Shown in pieces: positions 21,093 through 35,095 of a stretch of 35,245 nucleotides of DNA (position 1 is the stretch's first letter; each line of letters begins with the position of its first letter). The DNA is taken from contig CAITSE010000271.1 in the NCBI GenBank assembly GCA_903894975.1, positions 1-35,245 on the forward strand. The letters are read 5' to 3'. The notes under the pieces were generated by a model that saw nothing but the letters and a program-made list of their open reading frames with translations, was not told where the DNA came from and searched no databases. Made by a program: the position numbers and the translations under genes. Origin of the DNA: an uncultured Lentisphaerota bacterium. GTDB lineage: Bacteria > Verrucomicrobiota > Lentisphaeria > Oligosphaerales > CAITYL01.

Positions 21093-21153
21093 CGGAGCGG
21101 GGAATGATTTTTACGCTGGCCGGACTCCGGTCAACCCGCACTGGAAGGCACGC

Positions 21154-23697
21154 ATGAACCCCCCCCGCAGGCATTTGTCCGCCTCTTCCCGCCACGCCCC
21201 GCCGGCAGCCGCCGACGAAGTCCGCGCGGACCTGCATGTTCACAGCCGGCACTCGGATCATCCCAGCGAGTGGTTCCTCCGCCGTATCGGCTCCCCGGAA
21301 AGCTTCATGGAGCCGCGGGAAATCTACCGGCGCTGCAAAGCCAAAGGGATGCGTTTCGTCACCATTTCCGATCACAACACCATCGCCGGCGCGCTGGAGA
21401 TCTCCCAGTATCCCGACACCTTTCTCTCGGCCGAGGTCACCACCTATTTCCCGGAGGACGGGTGCAAGATCCACTGTCTCGTCTCCGGCATCAATGAGGC
21501 GGAATTCCGGAAGATTGAGGCCCGGCGCGAGAACATTTACGACCTGCGCCAGTACCTGCACCAGCATCAGATCATGCATTCCATCACCCACCCGCTCTTC
21601 CGCGTCAACGGGAAACTGACGGTGGAGCACGTGGAGAAACTGCTGGTCCTGTTCAACTGTTTTGAGGGCATCAACGGCGCCCGCCATCCCCGCGCCTCGG
21701 AACTGGTCTACGCCATCTTCGGCAGCCTGACCCCGGAGACGCTCGGCGTCCTGGCCGACCGCCACGGACTTGAGCCTTTCGGTCCGGAGCCCTGGCGCAA
21801 GCGCTTCACCGGCGGCAGCGACGACCATAGCGGCTGTCATCTCGGCAATGCCTACACCTTCACGCCTCCGGCCAAGAACGTGCTGGAATTCCTGGAACAT
21901 CTGCGCGAGGGACGCCATGACATGGGCGGTTGCTGCGGCACCAGCCTGAAACTGGCCGGAAGTCTGTATTCCATTGCCTGGCAATACTATCGCAACCGAC
22001 TCATGGGCGGCTGCGGCGGCGCGGCGGGGCCGCTCGGCGAACTGCTCCGCCGCCTGGCGGAGACCGGGGATGGCACCTCCCGCGCTTCCGGCTGGCGCGA
22101 GACCGCACGGCATGTCGCCGGCCGCATCTTCGGCGCCACACGGAAACGCAATCCCTTGGAAACCTTGCTGCTGCAGGAATTTTCCGGCCTGGTCCGGGCG
22201 GACGCCGCCGCGGGCGGGGCGACGGCGGCCGGGGCCGTGGACGATGACCAGGCCTTCCAGCTCGCCTGCCGCATCGGCCACCAGCTCGGGTTCGCCTTCC
22301 TCCGGAAATGCGCCGACCACCTCCGCCGCGGCGAGCTGATGGACAGCCTCCAGTCGGCCGCCGCCCTCGGCCCCCTGGCCTTGGGCGTCGCCCCCTATTT
22401 CGCCGCGTTCAGCACCCAGCACAAGGACGAGCCCTTTCTCCAGGCCGTCGCCGGCCGTTTCCCCGCCGCCAACCACCTGGTCCGCCCCAGCGAAAAGAAA
22501 GCCTGGGTCACGGACACGTTTACCGACGTCAACGGCGTGACCCGCACCATCCAGATCCTCGGCGCCATCGCCCGGACTCAGGGGCGCAAGCTGACCATCG
22601 TCACCTGCCTGGAAAAGCCGCCCCGGCTCGATCTGCCGCTCATGAACTTCCAGCCCGTGGGCAGCTTCAAACTCCCCGAGTACGAAAACCAGACCGTGGT
22701 TTTTCCGCCGTTCCTGGACATCCTCCGCTGGTTCGAGAAGGAAAAGTTTTCCGAGATCATCATTTCCACGCCCGGCCCCCTGGGGCTGGCCGCGCTGGCG
22801 GCGGGCCGCATCCTGGGGCTGCGCGTGACCGGCATTTACCACACCGACTTCCCCCAGTATGCCCGGTACCTGACCCAGGACGAGGTCATGGAACAGCTCA
22901 CCTGGCGCTACATGCAATGGTTCTTCGGCCAGCTCGACACCGTCTTTGTCCCCAGCGAAACCTACCGCCAGCTCCTGATCGAGCGCGGCCTGAGCGAGGC
23001 GAAACTGCTGGTCATGCCCCGCGGCGTGGACCTGCGCGAATTCAATCCCGAGTCGCGCGACCCGGAATTCTGGCAGCGCTTCGGCGCGCCGCCGGGCTTC
23101 GTCTACCTCTATGTCGGCCGCATGTCGGTCGAAAAGAACCTGGAACTGCTGCTGGACGTGTTCCGCGAGGTCCGCGCCCTGCGGCCGGACGCCGTGCTGG
23201 TTCTGGTCGGGGACGGGCCGCAGCTCGCCGCACTCCGGCGCCGGGGCGAAAAAGAGCGCAGCGTGTTCTTTGCCGGCTGCCTGCAACACGAGGCGCTGGC
23301 GCAGGCCTATGCCAGCGCCGACGTGTTCGTGTTCCCGAGCACCACCGACACGTTCGGCAACGTCGTCCTGGAGGCGCAGGCCTGCGGTCTGCCCGCGGTG
23401 GTGAGCGACCGCGGCGGTCCGCGCGAAATTGTCGAACGGCATCAATCCGGCATTGTCGTCGACCTGACCCGGCCCCACGCTTTGACCGAGGCCATGGTCC
23501 GGCTGCATGACGACCGGCCCCTACTCGAACAGCTGCGCGGCAAGGCCCTCGAAAACGCCCGGGACTCCCGCTGGGAGGCGATCCTGGACCAGTTCTGGAC
23601 GGCCGGGGCCGCCGCGCCCGTTGCGGCGGCTCCGGAATATCTTCGCATCCAGAACGATCCGTCCGCCGCCGCCGGCCGGGAACTGCAAGTGGCCTAG
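21154..23697 (+). CDS. Fusion of a PHP-type metallophosphoesterase domain and a GT4 glycosyltransferase
   Basis: This 847-residue protein has two parts. Residues about 24-275 are a PHP domain: DLHVHSRHSD (H28, H30), TISDHNTIAG, MHSITHPLFR and GGSDDHSGCH supply the metal-binding His and Asp residues. A helical linker follows (about 275-460). The rest (about 460-820) is a GT-B glycosyltransferase of the GT4 kind, with FVYLYVGRMSVEKNLELLL and the nucleotide-sugar-binding FPSTTDTFGNVVLEAQACGLP. GT4 enzymes of this look often make glycolipids or mannosides; the PHP part may hydrolyse a phosphate or phosphodiester. No membrane segment is seen. GGAAGG precedes the start. An upstream open extension was rejected for lack of a ribosome site. 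Confidence 0.88.
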   Translation: MNPPRRHLSASSRHAPPAAADEVRADLHVHSRHSDHPSEWFLRRIGSPESFMEPREIYRRCKAKGMRFVTISDHNTIAGALEISQYPDTFLSAEVTTYFPEDGCKIHCLVSGINEAEFRKIEARRENIYDLRQYLHQHQIMHSITHPLFRVNGKLTVEHVEKLLVLFNCFEGINGARHPRASELVYAIFGSLTPETLGVLADRHGLEPFGPEPWRKRFTGGSDDHSGCHLGNAYTFTPPAKNVLEFLEHLREGRHDMGGCCGTSLKLAGSLYSIAWQYYRNRLMGGCGGAAGPLGELLRRLAETGDGTSRASGWRETARHVAGRIFGATRKRNPLETLLLQEFSGLVRADAAAGGATAAGAVDDDQAFQLACRIGHQLGFAFLRKCADHLRRGELMDSLQSAAALGPLALGVAPYFAAFSTQHKDEPFLQAVAGRFPAANHLVRPSEKKAWVTDTFTDVNGVTRTIQILGAIARTQGRKLTIVTCLEKPPRLDLPLMNFQPVGSFKLPEYENQTVVFPPFLDILRWFEKEKFSEIIISTPGPLGLAALAAGRILGLRVTGIYHTDFPQYARYLTQDEVMEQLTWRYMQWFFGQLDTVFVPSETYRQLLIERGLSEAKLLVMPRGVDLREFNPESRDPEFWQRFGAPPGFVYLYVGRMSVEKNLELLLDVFREVRALRPDAVLVLVGDGPQLAALRRRGEKERSVFFAGCLQHEALAQAYASADVFVFPSTTDTFGNVVLEAQACGLPAVVSDRGGPREIVERHQSGIVVDLTRPHALTEAMVRLHDDRPLLEQLRGKALENARDSRWEAILDQFWTAGAAAPVAAAPEYLRIQNDPSAAAGRELQVA

Positions 23698-24065: not shown

Positions 24066-24884
24066 TTACTGCATCGCCACCGGCGGGGTTTGGATGGTCT
24101 TCAACTCGGCGGTGAACCAGCCGATGAGGACTTTGCTGCGCAGCTTGACCGGCAGCCGGCGGGCATCGCGGGTGATCCAGACCTGGATGCGGGCGTCCGC
24201 CGAAGGCTCGAAGACCGTCTGAACTTTGCCGAGCTCGGGTTCGACCACGCAGGTATCGAACTCGCCGGCCGGCGTCCGGATCCGTTCCGTCCGCAACACC
24301 CGGCCCAGTACCGCCTGGCTGGTGAGACCGTCTGAAGCGTTGAAGTGCAAGATATTACCCGGTTCCAACTCGCCCTGGGCCAGGCGGAGTTTGGCCACCA
24401 GGCCGAGGGTTTCAAAGGTGCCGTCGGGAATGGCCAGAAGCGGTTGCGTCTGGCCGTTTTGGACCGCCAGGGCCAGGCCGCGGTCGGCATCGAAGGTCGC
24501 CTGGGTTTCGGAGCTGCCGGCGTTGAATTCCCGGCGGACCCGGTACCCGAGGGAGGATTGCAGGGAGTCCCCCGCCCAGCTTTCATAATCGACCCGGACC
24601 TTGTAGATCGAATCCAGCACGGGCGTAGTCGCGGCGCTGAGGCGGAACTGCCAGGCGGGTTCGCCGCTGTCGCCGAACGTGGGCAACCGCAGGGTGGTCA
24701 GGGACGCATGGGCGGCGGTGACAAAGCCCCAGCTCAATTCGTACTCCAGCCGCTCGCCCGAAGTCAAGGTCAGCGCCGGGAGCGGGTCGGGAACGCGGAC
24801 TACGGGTTTGCCGGCGTCGGCGCTCACGGCTCCGAGCCCGGCCAGGGCCAAACCCGCGAGTAGGTGCTGAAGTTTGTGTTGCAT
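24066..24884 (-). CDS. DUF3108 domain exported protein
   Basis: This 272-residue protein begins with a signal peptide (QHKLQHLLAGLALAGLGAVSADA, cleavage probably after ADA) and is otherwise all beta. LTSGERLEYELSWGFVTAAHASL and the late ARIQVWITRDARRLPVKLRSKVLIGWFTAEL are typical of DUF3108, a family of periplasmic or outer-membrane-associated proteins of unknown function. The start at 24884 has GGAG 7 nt upstream and opens the signal peptide; an earlier in-frame ATG lacks both. It is divergent from the porin gene and has its own Pho-box-like site, so a role in the envelope under phosphate starvation is a reasonable inference. Confidence 0.82.
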   Translation of the reverse strand: MQHKLQHLLAGLALAGLGAVSADAGKPVVRVPDPLPALTLTSGERLEYELSWGFVTAAHASLTTLRLPTFGDSGEPAWQFRLSAATTPVLDSIYKVRVDYESWAGDSLQSSLGYRVRREFNAGSSETQATFDADRGLALAVQNGQTQPLLAIPDGTFETLGLVAKLRLAQGELEPGNILHFNASDGLTSQAVLGRVLRTERIRTPAGEFDTCVVEPELGKVQTVFEPSADARIQVWITRDARRLPVKLRSKVLIGWFTAELKTIQTPPVAMQ

Positions 24885-24970
24885 CTCGGTCTCCCGTCGT
24901 TCGTTGCCAGCATCGAATGCCAACTTCGTAAAAATTCTTTACTCTTTGAATGTAAGGGTGTTTGGGGTTG

Positions 24971-25003
24971 ATTACTGGCCCGGTTTGATGAGAACTGCGT
25001 GAG
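24971..25003 (-). promoter_or_regulatory. Pho-box-like promoter of the DUF3108 gene
   Basis: Reading the minus strand, CTCAC (25003-24999), six bases, CTCAT (24992-24988), eleven bases, then AGTAAT (24976-24971). The bases after the second half-site (CAAACCGGG) resemble those at the porin and pstS promoters. Only the ten-base spacing of the other sites is off, by one. Confidence 0.5.
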
Positions 25004-25093: not shown

Positions 25094-25168
25094 ATAACCG
25101 CTTTCTCAACTAGTTCTAACCGTGGCTCATGGCAGACTAACCGGCGGCTCATAAACCGGCTCTACCTT
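25094..25168 (+). promoter_or_regulatory. Array of Pho-box-like half-sites before the porin gene
   Basis: Half-sites ATAAC (25094), CTCAA (25105), CTAAC (25116), CTCAT (25126), CTAAC (25137) and CTCAT (25148) are spaced 11, 11, 10, 11 and 11 bp. Ten bases after the last one comes TACCTT (25163-25168), a plausible -10. The 11-bp direct-repeat geometry is that of PhoB/PhoP binding sites. The gap between the two divergent genes (24885-25226, 342 bp) holds this array, the DUF3108 site, and no word repeats. Confidence 0.65.
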
Positions 25169-25226
25169 TGAGCATGTTCCCGGACAGAGTGCCGGAAACC
25201 CAACCCCACCGAAGGAGAAACCGTAC

Positions 25227-26696
25227 ATGGAAGCAAGAGCCAAGCTCGTGCGCCGCAGCCTGGGAGTTCTGCTCCTCGGCGCGGCAACGGCCGGCGCGCA
25301 GGAACCTGTCAGCCAGGCGGATCTGATGAAAGTCATCGAAAACCAGACCGCCCAGCTCAACGCCCTGTCCCAGCGCCTGCAAAATCTGGAAACCACCCAG
25401 ACCCAGATGAAAACCGTGATGAAGGAGACCAACGAAGCCGTTTCCGACCAAAACAAAAAACTGGAGCAGAGCAGTTCGCTTCTCTCTCTCGGCAAAGGCA
25501 TCGACAACCTCAAGATCACCGGCGACCTGCGTCTGCGCTATGAGGCGCGTGATGTGCAAGTCCCGAACCGGGCCACCGGCACTGCGAGCGGCGACCGCAC
25601 CCGTATCCGCGACCGTTTCCGTCTCAACGGCGTCTGGACGAACAAGACGGAAGGCTGGGAAGTCGGCGCCGGGCTGGCCACCGGCAATGACCGGGCCGGA
25701 CGCAGCTCCAATTCCGATTGGGGCCGCCAGGGCGGCGACAACAACGTGTTCGATCACCAGGAAATCTGGCTCGACAACGCGTATGTCAAGCACAAGTTCG
25801 ACTACGAAGGCACGCCGGTCAGCCTGTTCGGCGGTCAGTTGGCGAAGAATCCCAATGTCTCCACCATTCTGACGTGGGACAATGACCTGCGGCCCACCGG
25901 CGTCGGCGCCCAGTACGGCGACCCGTACAGCAAGGATTACGCCGGCCCGATCTTCACGGCCGGAGCCTATGAAGTCGCCTACCTCAGCGACGGCAGCACC
26001 GTCAACGGGAAAAATGATTACTCCACCAAGGTCGACGACAACGTCTGGTGGTTCCCCGTCCAGGGCGGCTACAAGTACAAGGGCGAGAACAGCGACTTCC
26101 TTGCCATCGGCGGCTATCAGCACCTTAATGGCGCCTATCGCAACGCCGCCAACTGGTACAAGAACTCGCAAGTCCCGAACAATGCGTACGGCGGCGCCGA
26201 CACCGGCTACAAGTACGACATCCTGGAAACCTACCTGGAATACAAGACCACCTATGCCGGCTTTGAGCTCAAGCCCTACACCCATGTCGCCTACAACATG
26301 GGCGCCCAGGGGAACAAGACCCAGGGCGGCAACAAGGGCAAGGCCGCCAACAACCTTAGCACCGACCCCGGCGCCAGCGACAACAAGCTGGCTTGGATGC
26401 TCGGCATGGATGTCCGGCGCGGCAAGTGGACCCTTGGCTACGGCTACGCCTACATCGGCGCCGATGCCGTCTTCGGGCCGATGCGCGACAGTGACTTCGG
26501 CGAGACCGCCGGCCTGACCGACACCGACATCCAGGGGCATATCATCCGCCTCGGGTATGACATCACCAAGAATTGCAATGTCGGCGGTTCGTTGATGATG
26601 CTCCAGCGCAACAAGGGCGGCACGGCCACCAGGGCGGCGAATGCTGAAGCCGACAAGGCCGCGCTCGTGCAGCTCGACCTGAACTACAAATTCTGA
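25227..26696 (+). CDS. Putative outer-membrane porin with N-terminal coiled coil
   Basis: This 489-residue outer-membrane protein starts with a signal peptide (about residues 1-24, ending TAGA-QEPVS). A coiled coil with heptad-like Leu and Gln follows (about 30-90), which in such porins reaches to peptidoglycan or trimerises. Then comes a long series of amphipathic beta strands rich in Tyr, Gly and Asp, ending LNYKF, with the C-terminal aromatic recognised by the Bam machinery. It fits the putative porin family (Porin_5 type). AAGGAG lies 9 nt before the start. Its position before pstS and its Pho-box array suggest a phosphate- or organophosphate-permeable channel, by analogy with OprP/PhoE; no sequence relation to those is claimed. 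Confidence 0.82.
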   Translation: MEARAKLVRRSLGVLLLGAATAGAQEPVSQADLMKVIENQTAQLNALSQRLQNLETTQTQMKTVMKETNEAVSDQNKKLEQSSSLLSLGKGIDNLKITGDLRLRYEARDVQVPNRATGTASGDRTRIRDRFRLNGVWTNKTEGWEVGAGLATGNDRAGRSSNSDWGRQGGDNNVFDHQEIWLDNAYVKHKFDYEGTPVSLFGGQLAKNPNVSTILTWDNDLRPTGVGAQYGDPYSKDYAGPIFTAGAYEVAYLSDGSTVNGKNDYSTKVDDNVWWFPVQGGYKYKGENSDFLAIGGYQHLNGAYRNAANWYKNSQVPNNAYGGADTGYKYDILETYLEYKTTYAGFELKPYTHVAYNMGAQGNKTQGGNKGKAANNLSTDPGASDNKLAWMLGMDVRRGKWTLGYGYAYIGADAVFGPMRDSDFGETAGLTDTDIQGHIIRLGYDITKNCNVGGSLMMLQRNKGGTATRAANAEADKAALVQLDLNYKF

Positions 26697-26933
26697 CCCG
26701 CAGGCGCCGGGGCGGACCGTCCGCCCCGGACGAACCGCCAACTCGAAAATCCTTTCGCATGCGAGATCAAAAAACGACGGAGTTTGAACCCCGGCACCGC
26801 CTGAAGGCGGAACTCCGAACCCGGAGGGGCCGGCTCACGTTGGGAGTTCCCACTTCAGTGGGGGCTGTTTTCCCGTCGCGCAAGAGGTTCATGGAGTGGC
26901 GCAACCACGTTGCTACAAGATTCACACCGGTTT
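26697..26933. repeat. Hairpin-rich gap between porin and pstS
   Basis: A perfect 11-bp GC stem (26707-26717 with 26719-26729) follows the porin stop by 10 bp and could end its transcript, although no U-run follows. Farther on are CCGCC-TGAA-GGCGG at 26797-26810, an ACTCC/GGAG hairpin near 26815 and a CCCACT/AGTGGG hairpin near 26848-26860, all REP-like. A short open frame of 82 codons across this stretch is not protein-like. Confidence 0.55.
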
Positions 26934-26965
26934 TTAACCGGGGGCTAACAAATCGGGACTATCCT
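26934..26965 (+). promoter_or_regulatory. Pho-box-like promoter of pstS
   Basis: TTAAC (26934-26938), six bases, CTAAC (26945-26949), ten bases, TATCCT (26960-26965). The predicted start near 26972 gives a leader of about 32 nt with AGAGGA before the ATG at 27004. The layout is identical to the porin and pstC promoters. Confidence 0.65.
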
Positions 26966-27003
26966 GTTCTCATAACCTCCGTCAACCAAGAGGAACACCT
27001 CGC

Positions 27004-27984
27004 ATGAAAACTCTGACTCAACAGATTACGCTCACCGCCGCACTCGTTCTTGGCGCCGCCGCCCTCGGCCGTGCCGAAACTCCGATCCAGGTAGATCCGG
27101 GCCTCAAGGACTATGTGAAGGCCGAAGGCGTGGCCGGCAACCTGAGCAGCGTCGGCTCCGACACGTTGAACAACCTCATGACCTACTGGGCCGAGGGGTT
27201 CCGCAAGCTCTACCCGAACGTCAACATCCAAATCGAGGGCAAGGGCTCGGGCACTGCGCCGCCGGCGCTGATCGCGGGCACGGCCCAGCTCGGCCCGATG
27301 TCGCGCGAAATGAAGAAAGACGAAGTCACCGAGTTCGAGGGCACCTATGGATTTAAGCCGCTCAAGGTCAGCGTCTGCCTGGATTCGCTGGCGGTGTTTG
27401 TGCACCGGGACAATCCGGTGCCGTCCCTGACGCTCGAGCAGGTGGACGCCCTGTTTTCCAAGACCCGCAAGCGCGGCGCCAAGAGCGACATCCAGAGCTG
27501 GGGTTCGGCCGGGGTCACCGATCCGGCGTGGGTCTCCACTCCCGTCAGTCTCTACGGCCGTAATTCCGCCTCCGGAACGTATGGCTTCTTCAAGGAGCAC
27601 GTCCTGGCCAAGGGCGACTTCAAGGACACGGTCAAGGAGCAGCCCGGCTCGGCCTCCGTGGTCATGGGCATTACCGAGGATCGCGGCGGCGTTGGTTATT
27701 CCGGCATCGGTTACCGCACCTCCGGCGTCCGGGCCCTGCCCATTGCCGGCAAGGACGGCCAGCCTTATGAGCCGAACTACGCCAACGTCATCAGCGGCAA
27801 GTACCCGATCAGCCGCGCCCTGTACATCTATGTGGGGCGAAACCCCGGCAAGCCGATGGATCTGCTGACGAAGGAATTCCTCAAGTTCGTCCTCTCGAAG
27901 CAGGGCCAGGAAATCGTCGTCAAAGACGGTTACTACCCGTTCACCGCCGCGCAGGCGGAAAAGGTGGCCGCGATCTTGGAGTGA
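27004..27984 (+). CDS. pstS: Phosphate ABC transporter, periplasmic phosphate-binding protein
   Basis: This 326-residue periplasmic protein binds inorganic phosphate and delivers it to the PstC-PstA channel. A signal peptide (KTLTQQITLTAALVLGAAALGRA) is cleaved before ETPIQ; there is no lipobox Cys. Phosphate-binding landmarks are SSVGSDTL near the start of the mature part, GKGSGTAPPALIAGTAQLGPMSRE, and GRNSASGTYGFFKE. VGYSGIGYRT and the C-terminal SKQGQEIVVKDGYYP are also typical. It has its own Pho-box promoter and a strong terminator, so it is transcribed apart from pstC, which suits the excess of binding protein over permease usual in such systems. Confidence 0.95.
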   Translation: MKTLTQQITLTAALVLGAAALGRAETPIQVDPGLKDYVKAEGVAGNLSSVGSDTLNNLMTYWAEGFRKLYPNVNIQIEGKGSGTAPPALIAGTAQLGPMSREMKKDEVTEFEGTYGFKPLKVSVCLDSLAVFVHRDNPVPSLTLEQVDALFSKTRKRGAKSDIQSWGSAGVTDPAWVSTPVSLYGRNSASGTYGFFKEHVLAKGDFKDTVKEQPGSASVVMGITEDRGGVGYSGIGYRTSGVRALPIAGKDGQPYEPNYANVISGKYPISRALYIYVGRNPGKPMDLLTKEFLKFVLSKQGQEIVVKDGYYPFTAAQAEKVAAILE

Positions 27985-28013
27985 GGCGGCCTCCCTCCAA
28001 GAATGTGGGGAAA

Positions 28014-28052
28014 GCGCAACCGGGTCCTCACTGGATCGGGTTGCGTTTTTTT
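28014..28052 (+). terminator. Intrinsic terminator after pstS
   Basis: A GC-rich stem (GCGCAACC and GTCC on the left, GGAT and GGTTGCG on the right) with a short TCAC-type loop is followed by a run of seven T. It lies 30 bp after the pstS stop and separates pstS from pstC. Confidence 0.85.
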
Positions 28053-28097
28053 CATTTTTGCCACGAACGAACGCAAAGATCGCAAAGGATGATTTTT

Positions 28098-28184
28098 CTC
28101 ACGGAGGCACAGAGGCACGGAGAATGCCCGTTGGCCTTTGGTGGAAGCCCCTCTTTCATCACCGTGTCCCTGTGCCTCCGTGAG
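28098..28184. repeat. Inverted pair of an 8-base word (CACGGAGG) between pstS and pstC
   Basis: Bases 28098-28120 pair with 28162-28184; 21 of 23 positions are Watson-Crick and one more is G-T. The word is CACGGAGG/CACAGAGG in tandem. A single-arm CGCAAAGAT/CGCAAAGG word precedes it at about 28071-28088. The loop is 41 nt. Confidence 0.65.
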
Positions 28185-28196
28185 AGAAACGCATTA

Positions 28197-28250
28197 TTCA
28201 ACCATTCCTCACGGCGCGCTAATCCGGCGCTAACAATCGGGGGTCATGTT
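28197..28250 (+). promoter_or_regulatory. Array of Pho-box-like half-sites before pstC
   Basis: Half-sites TTCAA (28197), CTCAC (28208), CTAAT (28219) and CTAAC (28230) are spaced exactly 11 bp. Ten bases after the last comes CATGTT (28245-28250), a weak -10. A start near 28257 gives a leader of about 20 nt, which supports the ATG at 28277 over the upstream TTG at 28253. Confidence 0.65.
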
Positions 28251-28276: not shown

Positions 28277-30502
28277 ATGACCCCGCGAGTCTTTCAACGG
28301 AACCGGCGCTGGGACCGGCTGGCGCGCTGGCTGATCTCCGTCGGCGGCGTCGGCGTGATCGGTTGCGTGGCCGTTATGCTGCTGCTGATCGTCTGGATGG
28401 CGCTGCCGCTGTTCGGGAAGCCGCATGCCACGGAAGTTGTTCCGGCCTTCACCGCGCCGGCGGGGACGCCGATCCTGGCCGTGGGCCTGGATGACAATGC
28501 CGAGGTCGGATTCACGCTCGGCGGCGACGGATTTTTCCAATTCCTTGAACTGCGCACCGGCGCCGTCACGGCCCGGGTGCCGGCCAGTCCGCGCGCCGGC
28601 AAGCCCGGGGTGAAATTGACCGGCGTGTCTGCCGGGCGTCATCTGGAATACGCCCTGGCTTGGGACGATGGTTCCTGGAGCCTGGTCCGCATCGCGTTCC
28701 GGTCAAGCTTTGAGACCGGGCGGCGGCAGATCCTGCACCAGGTCGAAATTCTGGCGGAAATGCCGGCGGCGGTCACGATGCCGGCCGGCGGCGCGGGACA
28801 GATGCGGGCCGGCGAGAAGGGCGGGGCTGTGCTGGTGTGGCTGGATCCGTCCGGCGCCACGTTCCAGGTTCGGCGCAGCGTGGTCAAGACCGACCTTCTG
28901 GGCAATGAAGAAACGGCGATGGCGACGTATGAAATTCCGGTTCCGGCCGGCAGCGTCACCGCATTTACCGTGGATCTGGCCGGCTCAACGCTCTACGCCG
29001 GCACGGCCGATGCGCGGCTCCTGCGCTGGAACCTGGGCGACGACCGGGCGGAACTGCTGGAGCAGGTGAGGGCGTTCGAGGACGGCCGCCGCATCACCGC
29101 GCTGGGATTGGTTTTCGGCGACGTTTCGCTGGCGGTCGGCGATGATCGCGGCGGGGTGAGCACCTGGATGCCGGTGGCGCTCTACGGCGAGGGCAGCAGC
29201 CGGCGGATGGAGCTCATCCACACTTTGGCCGCGCACGCCTCCCCCGTGGTTGAATTCCCCTTCGTACAATCCGGCAAGCAGCTCCTTAGCCGTTCGGCGG
29301 CCGGCCTGGTGCGGCTGGACCACATGACCAGCGAGCGCAAGCTGTTGACACTGCAGGGCAGCCAGTCCCTTGATGCCATCAATATTTCCAACCGCGGCGA
29401 TCATCTGCTGGCGCTGGACCGCAACGGCCTGTTGCACCTGTGGGATCTGGATGCGCCGCATGCCGAAATCTCTTGGAAAGTGCTGTTCGGTAAGGTTTGG
29501 TATGAGAACTACGACCGGCCGGCCTTGGTCTGGCAGTCGTCCGCCGCCAACGACGATGCCGAGCCCAAGTTCAGCTTTGTCCCGCTCATCTTCGGCAGTC
29601 TCAAGGCGACGTTTTACGCCTTGTTTTTTGCGGTGCCGCTGGCGTTGATGGGCGCGATTTACACCAGCCAGTTCACGACCCCGGAGGTCCGGGGCGTGGT
29701 CAAGCCGGCGGTGGAGATCATGGCGGCGGTGCCGTCGGTGGTGATCGGGTTTCTGGCGGCCCTGTGGTTGGCGCCGCGCGTGGAAACGGCGATCACGGGC
29801 GTCTTCCTGTTCGCGCTGATTTTGCCGGTGGCGTTCCTGCTGACCCTGGCTCTTTGGATGGCAATCCGGAACACGCGTCTGGCCAAGCGGGTGGGGCGCG
29901 GCTTCGAGTTCCTGCCGCTGATCCCGGTGCTGATTCTGGCCGGCGCCGCGGCGTTGGCGCTGGGGCCGGCGGTGGAGAAACTGCTGTTCGCAGGCGACTT
30001 CAAGCTGTGGCTGTTCCACACGGCCGGCCTGCGCTACGACCAGCGCAACAGTCTGATCATTGCGTTTGCTCTCGGATTTGCCGTGGTCCCGGTCATTTTT
30101 ACCATGGCCGAGGACGCGCTTTCCAATGTGCCGAACAATCTTAAGGCGGCGTCGCTGGCGTTGGGCGCGAGCCGGTGGCAGACGGTTTGGCGCGTGATTC
30201 TGCCGTCGGCCAGCCCCGGCGTGTTCGCGGCGGTCATCATCGGCTTCGGCCGCGCCGTGGGCGAGACCATGATCGTGCTCATGGCCACGGGCAACACTCC
30301 GATCCTCGACGCCAGTCCGTTCAACGGCATGCGCACGCTCTCGGCCAACATCGCTGTGGAAATTCCGGAGGCGCCCGCCGGCGGCACACTGTTCCGCCTG
30401 CTCTTCCTCTCCGCCGTACTCCTCTTTCTCCTGACGTCCGTGCTCAATACCGCCGCAGAACTCATCCGCCACCGGCTGCGGAAGAAATACGGGCAGTTCT
30501 GA
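28277..30502 (+). CDS. pstC: Phosphate ABC transporter permease, long PstC with periplasmic propeller-like insertion
   Basis: This 741-residue inner-membrane permease forms the phosphate channel with PstA. One membrane segment (about residues 15-42) is followed by a periplasmic insertion of about 385 residues with repeated strands (LLRWNLGDDRAELL, GLLHLWDLDAPHAEI) that look like WD40 or propeller blades. The transport domain begins at about 430. The cytoplasmic coupling loop that docks on PstB (ALSNVPNNLKAASLALGASRWQTVWRVILPSASPG) lies near 612-645. Classical PstC has only about 320 residues; the long form is known from pseudomonads and relatives. The ATG is preferred over an upstream TTG because AGGA and the predicted promoter fit it. 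Confidence 0.93.
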   Translation: MTPRVFQRNRRWDRLARWLISVGGVGVIGCVAVMLLLIVWMALPLFGKPHATEVVPAFTAPAGTPILAVGLDDNAEVGFTLGGDGFFQFLELRTGAVTARVPASPRAGKPGVKLTGVSAGRHLEYALAWDDGSWSLVRIAFRSSFETGRRQILHQVEILAEMPAAVTMPAGGAGQMRAGEKGGAVLVWLDPSGATFQVRRSVVKTDLLGNEETAMATYEIPVPAGSVTAFTVDLAGSTLYAGTADARLLRWNLGDDRAELLEQVRAFEDGRRITALGLVFGDVSLAVGDDRGGVSTWMPVALYGEGSSRRMELIHTLAAHASPVVEFPFVQSGKQLLSRSAAGLVRLDHMTSERKLLTLQGSQSLDAINISNRGDHLLALDRNGLLHLWDLDAPHAEISWKVLFGKVWYENYDRPALVWQSSAANDDAEPKFSFVPLIFGSLKATFYALFFAVPLALMGAIYTSQFTTPEVRGVVKPAVEIMAAVPSVVIGFLAALWLAPRVETAITGVFLFALILPVAFLLTLALWMAIRNTRLAKRVGRGFEFLPLIPVLILAGAAALALGPAVEKLLFAGDFKLWLFHTAGLRYDQRNSLIIAFALGFAVVPVIFTMAEDALSNVPNNLKAASLALGASRWQTVWRVILPSASPGVFAAVIIGFGRAVGETMIVLMATGNTPILDASPFNGMRTLSANIAVEIPEAPAGGTLFRLLFLSAVLLFLLTSVLNTAAELIRHRLRKKYGQF

Positions 30503-30825: not shown

Positions 30826-32427
30826 ATGAAACCGTCAACCAACATCAAATCTCCCGGGTTCTGGCGGTTGGGCGAGCCGTTCGTCTGGCTGACGGGCGCG
30901 GCCATGGCGCTGGTGCTGATCCTGGCCGGCGGCATGCTCGTGGTGGTGGCGGGGAACGGTTTGGGCGTGTTCTGGCCTGCCCGGCTCGAACAGTTTGAGA
31001 TGAAGGACAAAACGGTTCTGCTTGGCGCCGTGACCCAGCGCAGTGCCGTCCGCAACGGCGTCGCCCACTCCCGGCTCCAGGTGAAGGTCGGCAACCGCGA
31101 CCTCTCCGGCGCCGACTTCCGCTGGATCGACGCGGACGCCGTGGCCCGCACTTCCGCTCCGCCGGACGCCCTGCTCGTGGAACGGCGCGAGTTCGGCGAT
31201 TTCCACGGCTTCCTGGTCCGCTCCGCCACGGCCGGCGGTGTCGATGGACTCCGTGCCGACTGGCTCAGGGTCCGGGCGGAGTTTGCGGGCGTCGCGGAAC
31301 TGGGGAAGGCCGTGTCCAAGATCAACGACCGCATGGAAGGCATCCGCCGCGACTTGCTACGCCTGCGTTACCGGAATGCCCCCGAGTCCGGCTCCGCCAT
31401 CCGCGGCTGCCTGGCGCGCCAGGCGGAACTCAAGGTCGAATTCGACCGGCTGGTTGCCGGGCAGACCCGGAGCCTGGAAGGACTGCGGCGGCACACGGCC
31501 ACGTTCCGGGATGCCGCCGGCCGCGAGAAGGAAATCCCGCTGACCGACATCGTCCGCTTCTGCCAACCCAATATCCTGGGGGTCGGCGGGAAAGCCGGAT
31601 GGTATCTGGAAAAAGTGTGGGAACTCTTTTTCGCCGAACCGCGCGAGGCCAACACCGAAGGCGGCCTCTTCCCGGCGATCATGGGGACCGTGATGATGGT
31701 TTTTCTGATGAGCCTGTTCAGTTTCCCCCTGGGCGTGGTCACCGCCGTCTACCTGCGGGAGTATGCCAGAGACGGCTGGTTGGTTCGCGTTGTGCGCATC
31801 GCGGTCAACAACCTGGCCGGCATTCCTTCCATCGTCTACGGCATCTTCGGGCTCGGGTTCTTCATCTACGGCGTCGGTTCAGGGTTGGACCGGCTGTTTT
31901 TCCCCGAGCGACTGCCGACGCCCACTTTCGGCACCGGCGGCATTCTTTGGGCGAGCCTGACCTTGGCGTTGCTGACTGTACCCGTGGTGATCGTGGCCAC
32001 GGAGGAGGCGCTGGGCGCCATTCCCGCGGGAGTCCGGCACGCGTCCCTGGCCCTGGGCGCGACCAAGCTCCAGACCCTGCTCCGGGTCCTGTTGCCGATG
32101 GCGTCGCCGGGGATCATGACCGGCTTCATCCTGGCCATGGCCCGCGCGGCGGGCGAGGTCGCTCCGCTCATGATCACCGGCGTGGTCAAGCTCGCGCCGG
32201 CCATGCCGTTGGACGGGAACTTCCCGTTCTTCCACGTCGATCGCAAGTTTATGCATCTCGGCTTCCACATCTACGACATCGGCTTTCAGTCACCCAACGT
32301 CGAGGCGGCCAAGCCCATGGTCTATGTCACGACCCTGCTGCTCCTGTTCATCGTCCTGCTCATGAGCAGCAGCGCCATTCTCCTCCGCAACCGCATGAAA
32401 AAACGCTACACCCTCGGTTCGTTCTAG
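30826..32427 (+). CDS. pstA: Phosphate ABC transporter permease, long PstA with periplasmic coiled-coil insertion
   Basis: This 533-residue partner of PstC has one N-terminal membrane segment (about 18-42), then about 230 periplasmic residues. These include a likely coiled coil (LGKAVSKINDRMEGIRRDLLRL to LEGLRRHTATF, about 160-230). The transport domain begins at about 280 (GTVMMVFLMSLFSFPLGVVTAVYLREY). The PstB-docking loop EALGAIPAGVRHASLALGATKLQTLLRVLLPMASPG lies at about 393-428. Ordinary PstA has about 290 residues, so the insertion matches the long PstC. It is separated from pstC by 323 bp of repeats without its own visible Pho box, so it probably depends on read-through. Confidence 0.93.
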   Translation: MKPSTNIKSPGFWRLGEPFVWLTGAAMALVLILAGGMLVVVAGNGLGVFWPARLEQFEMKDKTVLLGAVTQRSAVRNGVAHSRLQVKVGNRDLSGADFRWIDADAVARTSAPPDALLVERREFGDFHGFLVRSATAGGVDGLRADWLRVRAEFAGVAELGKAVSKINDRMEGIRRDLLRLRYRNAPESGSAIRGCLARQAELKVEFDRLVAGQTRSLEGLRRHTATFRDAAGREKEIPLTDIVRFCQPNILGVGGKAGWYLEKVWELFFAEPREANTEGGLFPAIMGTVMMVFLMSLFSFPLGVVTAVYLREYARDGWLVRVVRIAVNNLAGIPSIVYGIFGLGFFIYGVGSGLDRLFFPERLPTPTFGTGGILWASLTLALLTVPVVIVATEEALGAIPAGVRHASLALGATKLQTLLRVLLPMASPGIMTGFILAMARAAGEVAPLMITGVVKLAPAMPLDGNFPFFHVDRKFMHLGFHIYDIGFQSPNVEAAKPMVYVTTLLLLFIVLLMSSSAILLRNRMKKRYTLGSF

Positions 32428-32731: not shown

Positions 32732-33517
32732 ATGAGCGATACTCCCCTCATCCTCCCCATCGAAAACCCGGTCCTGAAGGTGTCCGACCTGCACCTGTAC
32801 TACGGCGACAGCGAGGCGCTGCACGGGATCTCCATGGGCTTCCCGGCCCGGCAGGTCACGGCGCTGATCGGGCCGTCCGGCTGCGGCAAATCCACGCTCC
32901 TGCGCTGCCTGAACCGGATGAACGACCTGATCGAAGGTGTGCGCGTGACCGGCAGCCTGCAGCTGGACGACATCGAGATCAATGATCCCGCGCTGGATGT
33001 CATCGGCCTCCGCCGCCGCGTCGGCATGGTCTTTCAGAAATCGAATCCCTTCCCCAAGTCGGTCTACGAAAACGTGGTCTACGGTCTGCGCATCGCCGGC
33101 GTCGGCGACCGTGCGGTCCTGGACGAGGCGGTGGAGAAAAGCCTCCGCAGCGCCGGACTTTGGGACGAGGTCAAGGACCGGCTCGCCGAATCCGCCCTCG
33201 GTCTCTCCGGCGGGCAGATGCAGCGGCTCTGCATCGCCCGCGCCATCGCCGTGAACCCGGGAATCATTCTCATGGATGAACCGTGCTCCGCTTTGGACCC
33301 GCGTTCCACGGCCCGCGTCGAGGACCTGATCGTCGAGTTGCGCGAGAACTACACCATCATTATTGTCACCCACAACATGCAGCAGGCCGCGCGCGTCTCC
33401 GATCTCACCGCCTTCCTGTACGAAGGGCACCTGGTGGAATACGGTCCCACCAAGCGCCTCTTCACCAAGCCGTTGAGTCCGAAAACTGAAGACTACATCA
33501 CCGGAAGATTCGGATGA
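32732..33517 (+). CDS. pstB: Phosphate ABC transporter ATP-binding protein
   Basis: This 261-residue ATPase drives phosphate import through PstC-PstA. Walker A is GPSGCGKST (about 46-54), the Q-loop is [16 protein letters not shown] as in PstB, the signature is [16 protein letters not shown], Walker B is [14 protein letters not shown], and the H-loop is [16 protein letters not shown]. The signature carries Met where PstB usually has Gln (LSGGQQQRL), a mild change. Length and motifs are otherwise typical. The start at 32732 is the first Met that fits the PstB N-terminus; the AGGGA upstream is rather far (about 12 nt). phoU follows after a word-repeat pair. Confidence 0.96.
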
Positions 33518-33676: not shown

Positions 33677-34345
33677 ATGTCCGTCCATCTGCTTCATGAA
33701 CTCAACCGGCTCCAGCATGACCTGCTCGCCCTCAGCGCCCGGGTGGAGGGGATGCTGCTGGACGCCGTCCGCGCCTTCGACCACCGCGATTTCGCCTTGG
33801 CCCGGCAGGTTATTAATCTTGATGACGGCGTGGACCACACTGAGGTGGAGATCGAGGAGGAGTGCCTCAAGATCCTGGCCCTTCACCAGCCGGTGGCCAC
33901 CGACCTGCGCTTTATTGTGTCCGTGCTCAAGATCAACAACGACCTGGAGCGCATCGCCGACCTGGCGGTCAACATCGCCGAGCGCACGCTCGCCCTGGGC
34001 ACCCTGCCGCCGCAGACCGGTACCCCTTTCAATTTCCATGACATGGCCGCCAAGGTCCAGCGCATGGTCAACATGAGCCTGGACGCCCTCATCCAGCGCG
34101 ATGCTGCCCAGGCCCGGGAGGTGATTGAGGCCGACGAGGAGATCGACGTCCTGCACCGGGCCATGTACGACCGTGTCGGCGCCGCCATTTCGGCGCATCC
34201 CGGCCACGCGCCGGCCCTCTTGCAGCTTATCTCCATCTCCCGCAACCTGGAACGCATCTCCGATCATGCGACGAACATCGCCGAGGACGTCATCTACCTG
34301 CTGGAAGGCGAGATCGTCCGGCACCAGCATCCGGAAAAGTCATGA
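33677..34345 (+). CDS. phoU: Phosphate transport and signalling regulator PhoU
   Basis: This 222-residue protein is full length for PhoU, which links the Pst transporter to the PhoR kinase and damps the Pho response when phosphate is plentiful. It is all helical with two similar halves. Each carries a metal-cluster-type motif, NNDLERIADLAVNIAE (about residues 95-110) and SRNLERISDHATNIAED (about 192-208). HQPVATDLRFIVSVLKI is also typical. GGAGG lies close before the start. It is followed by phoB after 63 bp. Confidence 0.95.
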   Translation: MSVHLLHELNRLQHDLLALSARVEGMLLDAVRAFDHRDFALARQVINLDDGVDHTEVEIEEECLKILALHQPVATDLRFIVSVLKINNDLERIADLAVNIAERTLALGTLPPQTGTPFNFHDMAAKVQRMVNMSLDALIQRDAAQAREVIEADEEIDVLHRAMYDRVGAAISAHPGHAPALLQLISISRNLERISDHATNIAEDVIYLLEGEIVRHQHPEKS

Positions 34346-34408: not shown

Positions 34409-35095
34409 ATGGCAAGACCCGTAATCCTGGTGGTGGACGACGAGCGCGACATCCTGGAGCTGCTCGAGTTCAACCTGGTCAAGAACGGTTATCAAGCCGT
34501 CTGCGTTTCCAGCGGCGAGGAGGCCCTGCGCGCCGTCCGGACGCAGACGCCGGACCTGATCCTGCTCGATCTCATGCTTCCCGCCATTGACGGCCTGGAT
34601 GTCTGCCGCATCCTCAAGGGCGATCCACGCACCCGCGCCATTCCCGTCATCATCGTCTCCGCCAAGGGCGAGGAGGCCGATGTGGTCACCGGGCTCGAGC
34701 TCGGGGCCGATGATTATGTGACCAAACCGTTCAGCCCCCGCGTCCTGCTGGCCCGCATCCGCGCCGTCCTGCGCAAAAAAAGCCAGGAACAGCCCGAGGC
34801 AAATTCCGTGGTGAAACGGCACGAGCTCGAGCTCGATCCCACCCGGCGTGAAGTGAAGGCGGCCGGGGCGCTGGTGGAACTGACCTACACCGAGTTCGGC
34901 GTGCTGCATTTCCTCATGCGCCGCCCGGGCTGGGTCTTCACCCGCAACCAGATCATCGATGCCGTCCGCGGCGATGACTACGCGGCCACGGAACGCTCCG
35001 TCGACGTCCAGATCGTCAGCCTCCGGCGCAAGCTCGGCGAGTTCGGCAAGTACGTCGACACCGTCCGCGGCGTCGGCTACCGTTTTAAAGACTGA
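34409..35095 (+). CDS. phoB: PhoB/PhoP-type response regulator
   Basis: This 228-residue OmpR-family regulator has a receiver domain (1-120) with acidic pocket D10-D11, phospho-acceptor D54 in LILLDLMLP, S84 and K106. A winged-helix DNA-binding domain (about 130-228) includes LTYTEFGVLHFLMRRPGWVFTRNQIID and RSVDVQIVSLRRKLGEFGKYVDTVRGVGYRF. Its place after pst and phoU identifies it as the phosphate regulator. It would bind the 11-bp-spaced half-sites before the porin, pstS and pstC. The sensor kinase gene does not follow within the 150 bp left in the window. Confidence 0.93.
   Translation: MARPVILVVDDERDILELLEFNLVKNGYQAVCVSSGEEALRAVRTQTPDLILLDLMLPAIDGLDVCRILKGDPRTRAIPVIIVSAKGEEADVVTGLELGADDYVTKPFSPRVLLARIRAVLRKKSQEQPEANSVVKRHELELDPTRREVKAAGALVELTYTEFGVLHFLMRRPGWVFTRNQIIDAVRGDDYAATERSVDVQIVSLRRKLGEFGKYVDTVRGVGYRFKD

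Follow-up and report, generated by a model that had tools for sequence, protein, structure and literature searches.

The phosphate genes on a 35,245-nucleotide stretch of DNA from an uncultured Lentisphaerota bacterium (the window; contig C271 of the 4.46-Mb draft genome G000) raise the question of what kind of promoter precedes them and to which regulator it belongs. On the + strand the gene order is porin, pstS, pstC, pstA, pstB, phoU and phoB. A sequence-only reading of this DNA had proposed that the promoters before the porin, pstS and pstC genes share one arrangement, in which a half-site is followed by six bases (N6), a second half-site, ten bases (N10) and a -10-like hexamer. We consider it very probable (roughly 93%) that the three sites are Pho boxes of PhoB-activated promoters of this island, and that their variant half-site arises through the encoded PhoB, a member of a clade whose recognition helix is altered.

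Three promoters with one layout

All three sites were located where they had been placed, with an identical layout before each gene (Table 1). The half-site is YTMAY, and the sites depart from the E. coli consensus CTGTCAT, as had been pointed out; E. coli-type TGTCAY pairs show no excess in the window (2 were counted with up to two mismatches allowed, where 4.07 were expected). On the + strand, none of the three promoters showed a sigma-70 -35/-10 pair. Three matches to the pattern YTMAY-N6-YTMAY-N10-YAYNNT lie in the window, compared with a mean of 0.00 in 100 dinucleotide shuffles, and a looser pattern with the first half-site base unspecified (TMAY-N7-TMAY-N10-YANNNT) also gave three matches against 0.06, a count of three being reached in 0 of 100 shuffles. 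Pattern searches of both strands of the whole genome, with spacers of N9 to N11, returned five matches, and N10 was found only in the three window sites; the looser pattern returned eight matches, three of them in the window. These patterns were derived from the three sites themselves, and it is the held-out tests in relatives, described below, that carry the weight. The bases that follow the second half-site had been listed in the wrong order; they are AAACCGGC at the porin, AAATCGGG at pstS and AATCGGGG at pstC.

More half-sites do extend upstream at the porin and at pstC, as had been claimed for these two. At pstS only two are in phase, and the next, TTCAC (26921), lies 13 bp from the in-phase pair. 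Before pstC the four half-sites do follow in 11-bp steps, the first of them (TTCAA) being weak. Six half-site-like words are likewise present before the porin, but not in 11-bp steps throughout: the distal three are spaced by 11 bp, but only 10 bp separate 25116 from 25126, which puts them out of phase with the proximal three by one base. The genome has only two places with three half-sites in phase, namely the porin and pstC promoters. A further pair on the - strand, CTCAC-N6-CTCAT, faces a DUF3108 gene (24066-24923, - strand), away from the porin, and has no good -10 at N10; it may be a weak divergent Pho box.

That the sites are chance words, or are derived from a dispersed repeat, had to be considered because a palindromic-looking repeat, CTAACGnnnCGCTAACG, is present in more than a dozen places in the genome (for example in contigs C28, C84, C137, C250 and C313) and accounts for about one third of the genome's YTMAY-N6-YTMAYR matches. 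The three sites lack the repeat core CGCTAACG and are the genome's sole N10 matches, and their conservation before orthologous genes already contradicts chance, so that this explanation is hardly credible. The CTAAC pairs of the genome at large were rejected as regulon members, many of them being copies of CTAACGnnnCGCTAACG that are unrelated to phosphate.

Conservation of the layout in relatives

A matrix built from the three window sites was run over 460 bp at the pstS start in 110 related loci and compared with shuffles. The best match upstream of pstS reached p≤0.05 in 63 of the 110 relatives, where 5.5 were expected, and p≤0.01 in 40. Among family members a like promoter precedes pstC in loci L013 and L012 and the porin in L013, L011 and L176, and all of these have N10 and a TANNNT-like -10. 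The sequence-only reading had made its proposal depend on the sites being scarce elsewhere in the genome and kept before orthologous genes, and this is what we found.

Spacing was scanned with a pattern blind to the first base of the half-site, over periods of 9-13 and distances to the -10 of 7-13. For loci with a PhoB of the window's type, the combination of period 11 with distance 10 gave 80 matches, and most of the others gave 2-20. At period 11 there were also side peaks (26-30 matches) at distances 7 and 13, which probably come from neighbouring half-sites. Loci whose PhoB has Arg at the equivalent of E. coli residue 201 gave 45 matches at period 11 and distance 10, against 0-8 elsewhere. 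The likeness to the geometry of known PhoB and PhoP sites is thereby upheld, period 11 standing out against 9, 10, 12 and 13 in relatives, with a distance of 10. Scoring the region upstream of pstS alone proved misleading in the Verrucomicrobiota groups f20, f21 and f23, where the box precedes another gene of the cluster, and whole loci were scanned instead. The pattern of two half-sites with a -10 then matched 83 times and its reverse 8 times; for three half-sites the figures were 103 and 4.

The sites as probable Pho boxes of PhoB

The window set has the structure by which a Pho box is defined, with repeats, N10, a location before phosphate genes and conservation. Binding by PhoB, activation and control by phosphate are predicted from homology. 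The three promoters would serve three transcription units: the porin, pstS, and pstCAB-phoU-phoB. In phosphate shortage, phosphorylated PhoB would line up head to tail on the 11-bp direct repeats, and with the last half-site ending 10 bp before the -10 it would occupy the place of a -35 and recruit RNA polymerase. That the half-site reads (C/T)T(A/C)A(C/T) rather than GTCAT would be due to the helix of this PhoB clade, in which Arg201 is replaced by Ser, Gly, Asn or Ala, His198 by Gln and Thr194 by Ala or Ser.

The encoded PhoB has a receiver domain in which the phosphorylated aspartate, Asp53, is kept and a winged helix of the OmpR type, and its fold residues are retained. Direct-repeat operators are common to the OmpR family, and the recognition helix is partly OmpR-like (ERSVDVQI in OmpR), both of which would suit a different regulator of this family as the protein that binds. 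Such a regulator is most unlikely: the sites precede phosphate genes in an island that encodes phoB, their N10 to the -10 is the distance of E. coli PhoB, and across about 90 genomes half-site and PhoB clade go together, as described below.

Some findings weigh against the sites being Pho boxes of this PhoB. At 248.5 bits the protein falls short of the TIGR02154 equivalog cut-off (296.2 bits), although TIGR02154 is its top-scoring family in that library; by context and best family match the regulator is PhoB. Among genomes lacking Arg201, 22 of 70 showed no pstS site at p≤0.02, as did 11 of the 41 that have it, in part because the box can sit upstream of another first gene. Finally, no exact three-half-site match was found in genome G002, though its porin promoter has the two-half-site core.

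The half-site follows a PhoB clade

The sequence-only reading had judged the box to be probably the lineage's own. CTAAC-type boxes with the same spacing were found at pstS in Desulfobulbaceae and Desulfuromonas and in many Verrucomicrobiota, while the Verrucomicrobiota groups f21 and f23 use GTCAC/GTAAC and Geobacter boxes read TGTAAC. The box thus tracks a clade of the PhoB protein and not the lineage of the organism. PhoB sequences collected from about 120 genomes comprise 74 rows of the window's class and 45 rows of a class with Arg201. The recognition helix of the window PhoB, RSVDVQIVSLRRKL, has Ser at the position of E. coli Arg201, and Arg stands at that of Trp184. Position 201 is Gly, Ser, Asn, Ala or Thr in 74/74 rows of the window's class and Arg in 45/45 of the other, and no other scanned position gives a complete split between the classes. 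Other helix changes in the window's class are Thr194 to Ala/Ser, His198 to Gln and Arg/Thr200 to Val/Phe. On the PhoB tree the rows without Arg201 form one clade of 71 rows (support 100/92), the exception being one long-branched Acidobacteria row with Thr at 201, which lies outside it.

Half-site pairs were then scored blind to the first half-site base. Of the pairs with a -10, the window's class had CC at this base in 54 of 83, and the Arg class GG in 35 of 45. Over all half-sites the counts were C 333, T 89, A 30 and G 26 in the window's class, and G 105, T 16, A 5 and C 5 in the Arg class. A majority of G was found in 29 of 33 genomes with Arg201, which thus goes with GTMAY boxes, against 1 of 57 without. 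In the sampled genomes the PhoB class goes with the half-site.

One alternative, close to the view of the sequence-only reading, is that the half-site is lineage-specific drift in Lentisphaerae, without meaning beyond that group. It accords with a half-site common to family members and with the recurrence in the family of GC-rich spacers such as CCGGCG. We regard it as very unlikely, as occurrence of the same half-site and layout across phyla already contradicts drift, the half-site sorts by PhoB clade, and f21 and f23 have boxes of the other kind.

We hypothesise that residue 201 and its neighbours set the base. In the crystal structure of E. coli PhoB with DNA, Arg201 makes a specific hydrogen bond with guanine (PMC3973317; also PMC3264566). 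Only one change is needed on the tree of the 90 scored rows, so the Fisher's p of 3e-18 does not count independent events, and with a single switch on the PhoB tree the test of independent pairs is empty and has no power. Repeated co-evolution of residue 201 with base 3 was rejected on the same ground, and with the split a single event the causal residue is unproven. The change at base 3 might instead be due to other substitutions of the PhoB clade (such as those at 194, 198 or 200, or flank shape effects), with the loss of Arg201 to Ser or Gly a passenger. Many positions of the domain differ between the two classes, and on a tree with one change the residues are inseparable; moreover, regulators with Arg at position 201 read T at position 3 elsewhere. 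RegX3 has Arg at the 201 position (..VKRLR), the related Streptomyces PHO box being GTTCACC (PMC4415409). The box CTTAACCT is read by cyanobacterial SphR, in which the residues that contact DNA in E. coli PhoB are reportedly conserved (PMC1906773). A universal rule that Arg201 reads G at position 3 was rejected on these examples. With the guanine contact of Arg201 and the complete split at that position alone set against it, we rate a passenger role as a real possibility, of somewhat less than even probability.

The sigma-contact loop

In E. coli PhoB the substitutions W184R, G185R, V190M and D192G abolish activation, and the acidic residues Glu177 and Glu191 face region 4 of sigma (PMC3973317). 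Of the 74 rows of the window's class, 46 have Arg, 15 His and 8 Lys at 184, and 69 have Thr at 191. With Ser201 and Arg184 the window PhoB has neither the guanine-contact nor the activation residue of E. coli. Judged from its sequences, the class would for the most part correspond, in nature, to a mutant that has lost activation, while keeping the promoter spacing; sigma must therefore be contacted in another way, for which the acidic residues at 186-187 (GDD/GED) are candidates.

Comparison with known Pho systems

The E. coli PhoB promoters phoA and pstS likewise have 11-bp direct repeats, a last half-site 10 bp before the -10 and no -35. This distance has been stated for E. coli (PMC1906773), and the phoA sequence, GTCAC-N10-TATAGT, was confirmed. 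The window PhoB keeps Arg193, Arg203, Thr217 and Arg219 of the E. coli protein, but the window differs in CTMAY for GTCAY, Ser for Arg201 and Arg for Trp184. The experimentally determined PhoB box of Desulfovibrio vulgaris, (c/t)GT(n)AC (PMC3333781), and the Geobacter box have the same layout and the T, A, C core of the half-site. Both differ in a G before the T, and Geobacter PhoB keeps Arg201.

The PhoP box of B. subtilis is TTAACA, with the TTAAC core and an 11-bp repeat. The Streptomyces PhoP site has a TTCAC core and the same repeat, but its G lies two bases before TCAC, and the regulators of both systems belong to other branches. The cyanobacterial SphR box shares the TTAAC core, the 11-bp period and multiple tandem copies (PMC1906773), but has T, not C, before TAAC. 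The nearness to the B. subtilis box noted earlier is thus a fair likeness and not a special closeness, the cyanobacterial box being just as near. The CTGTCAT consensus is no defining trait of Pho boxes, since the boxes of other phyla depart from it too.

Genes of the island and boxes beyond it

The closest named relatives of PstS are from Lentisphaerae metagenome-assembled genomes (72 and 71% identity). The pstC start codon is likely ATG 28277, and not the TTG 28253 of the mechanical list of open reading frames, because the latter lies upstream of the predicted transcription start (-10 at 28245-28250). PstC (741 residues) and PstA (533 residues) are far longer than the family models of about 300 residues, and PstC has a weakly WD40-like (beta-propeller) region ahead of its permease domain. 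The phoU gene is directly upstream of phoB, after which the window contig stops; in the relative L148 a phoR-like kinase gene comes next after phoB.

Table 1. Promoter elements and genes of the phosphate island, with boxes from a family member
Feature	Position	Strand	Basis
CTCAC-N6-CTCAT pair	24987-25003	-	
Distal porin words ATAAC 25094, CTCAA 25105, CTAAC 25116	25094-25120	+	hand count
In-phase porin half-sites CTCAT 25126, CTAAC 25137, CTCAT 25148	25126-25152	+	pattern search
Porin Pho promoter core CTAAC-N6-CTCAT-N10-TACCTT (-10)	25137-25168	+	pattern search
Porin gene	25227-26696	+	Pfam Porin_5; OprO/OprP-like by context
pstS Pho promoter core TTAAC-N6-CTAAC-N10-TATCCT	26934-26965	+	pattern search
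pstS, phosphate-binding protein	27004-27984	+	TIGR02136, score above cut-off
pstC Pho promoter TTCAA 28197 (weak), CTCAC 28208, CTAAT 28219, CTAAC 28230, N10, CATGTT	28197-28250	+	hand count, pattern search
pstC promoter core CTAAT-N6-CTAAC-N10-CATGTT	28219-28250	+	pattern search
pstC	28277-30502	+	profile match; probable start
pstA	30826-32427	+	profile match
pstB	32732-33517	+	profile match
phoU	33677-34345	+	profile match
phoB, presumed regulator (receiver and winged helix)	34409-35095	+	profile match, alignment
Pho boxes between OlsB-type acyltransferase and PHP/GT4 glycosyltransferase genes	L252:1482-1550 (G001 contig 90)		

The family member G001 has a three-half-site box, with N10 and TACAGT, 60 bp upstream of an OlsB-type acyltransferase gene (PF13444). 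A divergent gene for a PHP/GT4 (lipid-type) glycosyltransferase has its own upstream pair, CTCAT-N6-CTAAC; the homologue of this glycosyltransferase is at 21145-23697 in the window and adjoins the porin in G002. The G001 box supports the Pho-box reading from a promoter that was not used in defining the pattern. Acyltransferases of the OlsB-type family make ornithine lipids. Phosphorus-free lipids are a known response to phosphate starvation (see PMC11828411), and the G001 boxes suggest a putative phosphate-controlled remodelling of lipids. In the Lentisphaerae relative L011 a box with N10 and TATCAT (L011:2512) precedes a gene, located shortly upstream of the porin, for a Ser/Thr protein kinase of the eukaryotic type.

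A possible PhoB specificity class with its own half-site

The layout in the window is that of an ordinary, activator-dependent Pho promoter, and the new element is a half-site that belongs to a PhoB clade crossing phyla. Tentatively, at just under an even chance, we see in Verrucomicrobiota (with Lentisphaerae), Desulfobulbia and Desulfuromonas a distinct specificity class of PhoB, in which Arg201 is gone and the guanine of the box lost, position 184 is mostly basic and Thr replaces Glu191. DNA readout and sigma contact would have been rebuilt in one branch with the 11-bp/10-bp geometry fixed, and regulator and boxes would have moved or been inherited together across phyla.

A limited literature search found no published Pho-box model for Lentisphaerae, Verrucomicrobiota or Desulfobulbaceae, an absence that is weak evidence. 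The model described here makes phosphate regulons predictable in genomes of these three groups. It also provides a natural contrast within one regulator family, with two half-site codes on a fixed geometry, in which the residue-to-base code of PhoB is testable by single exchanges.

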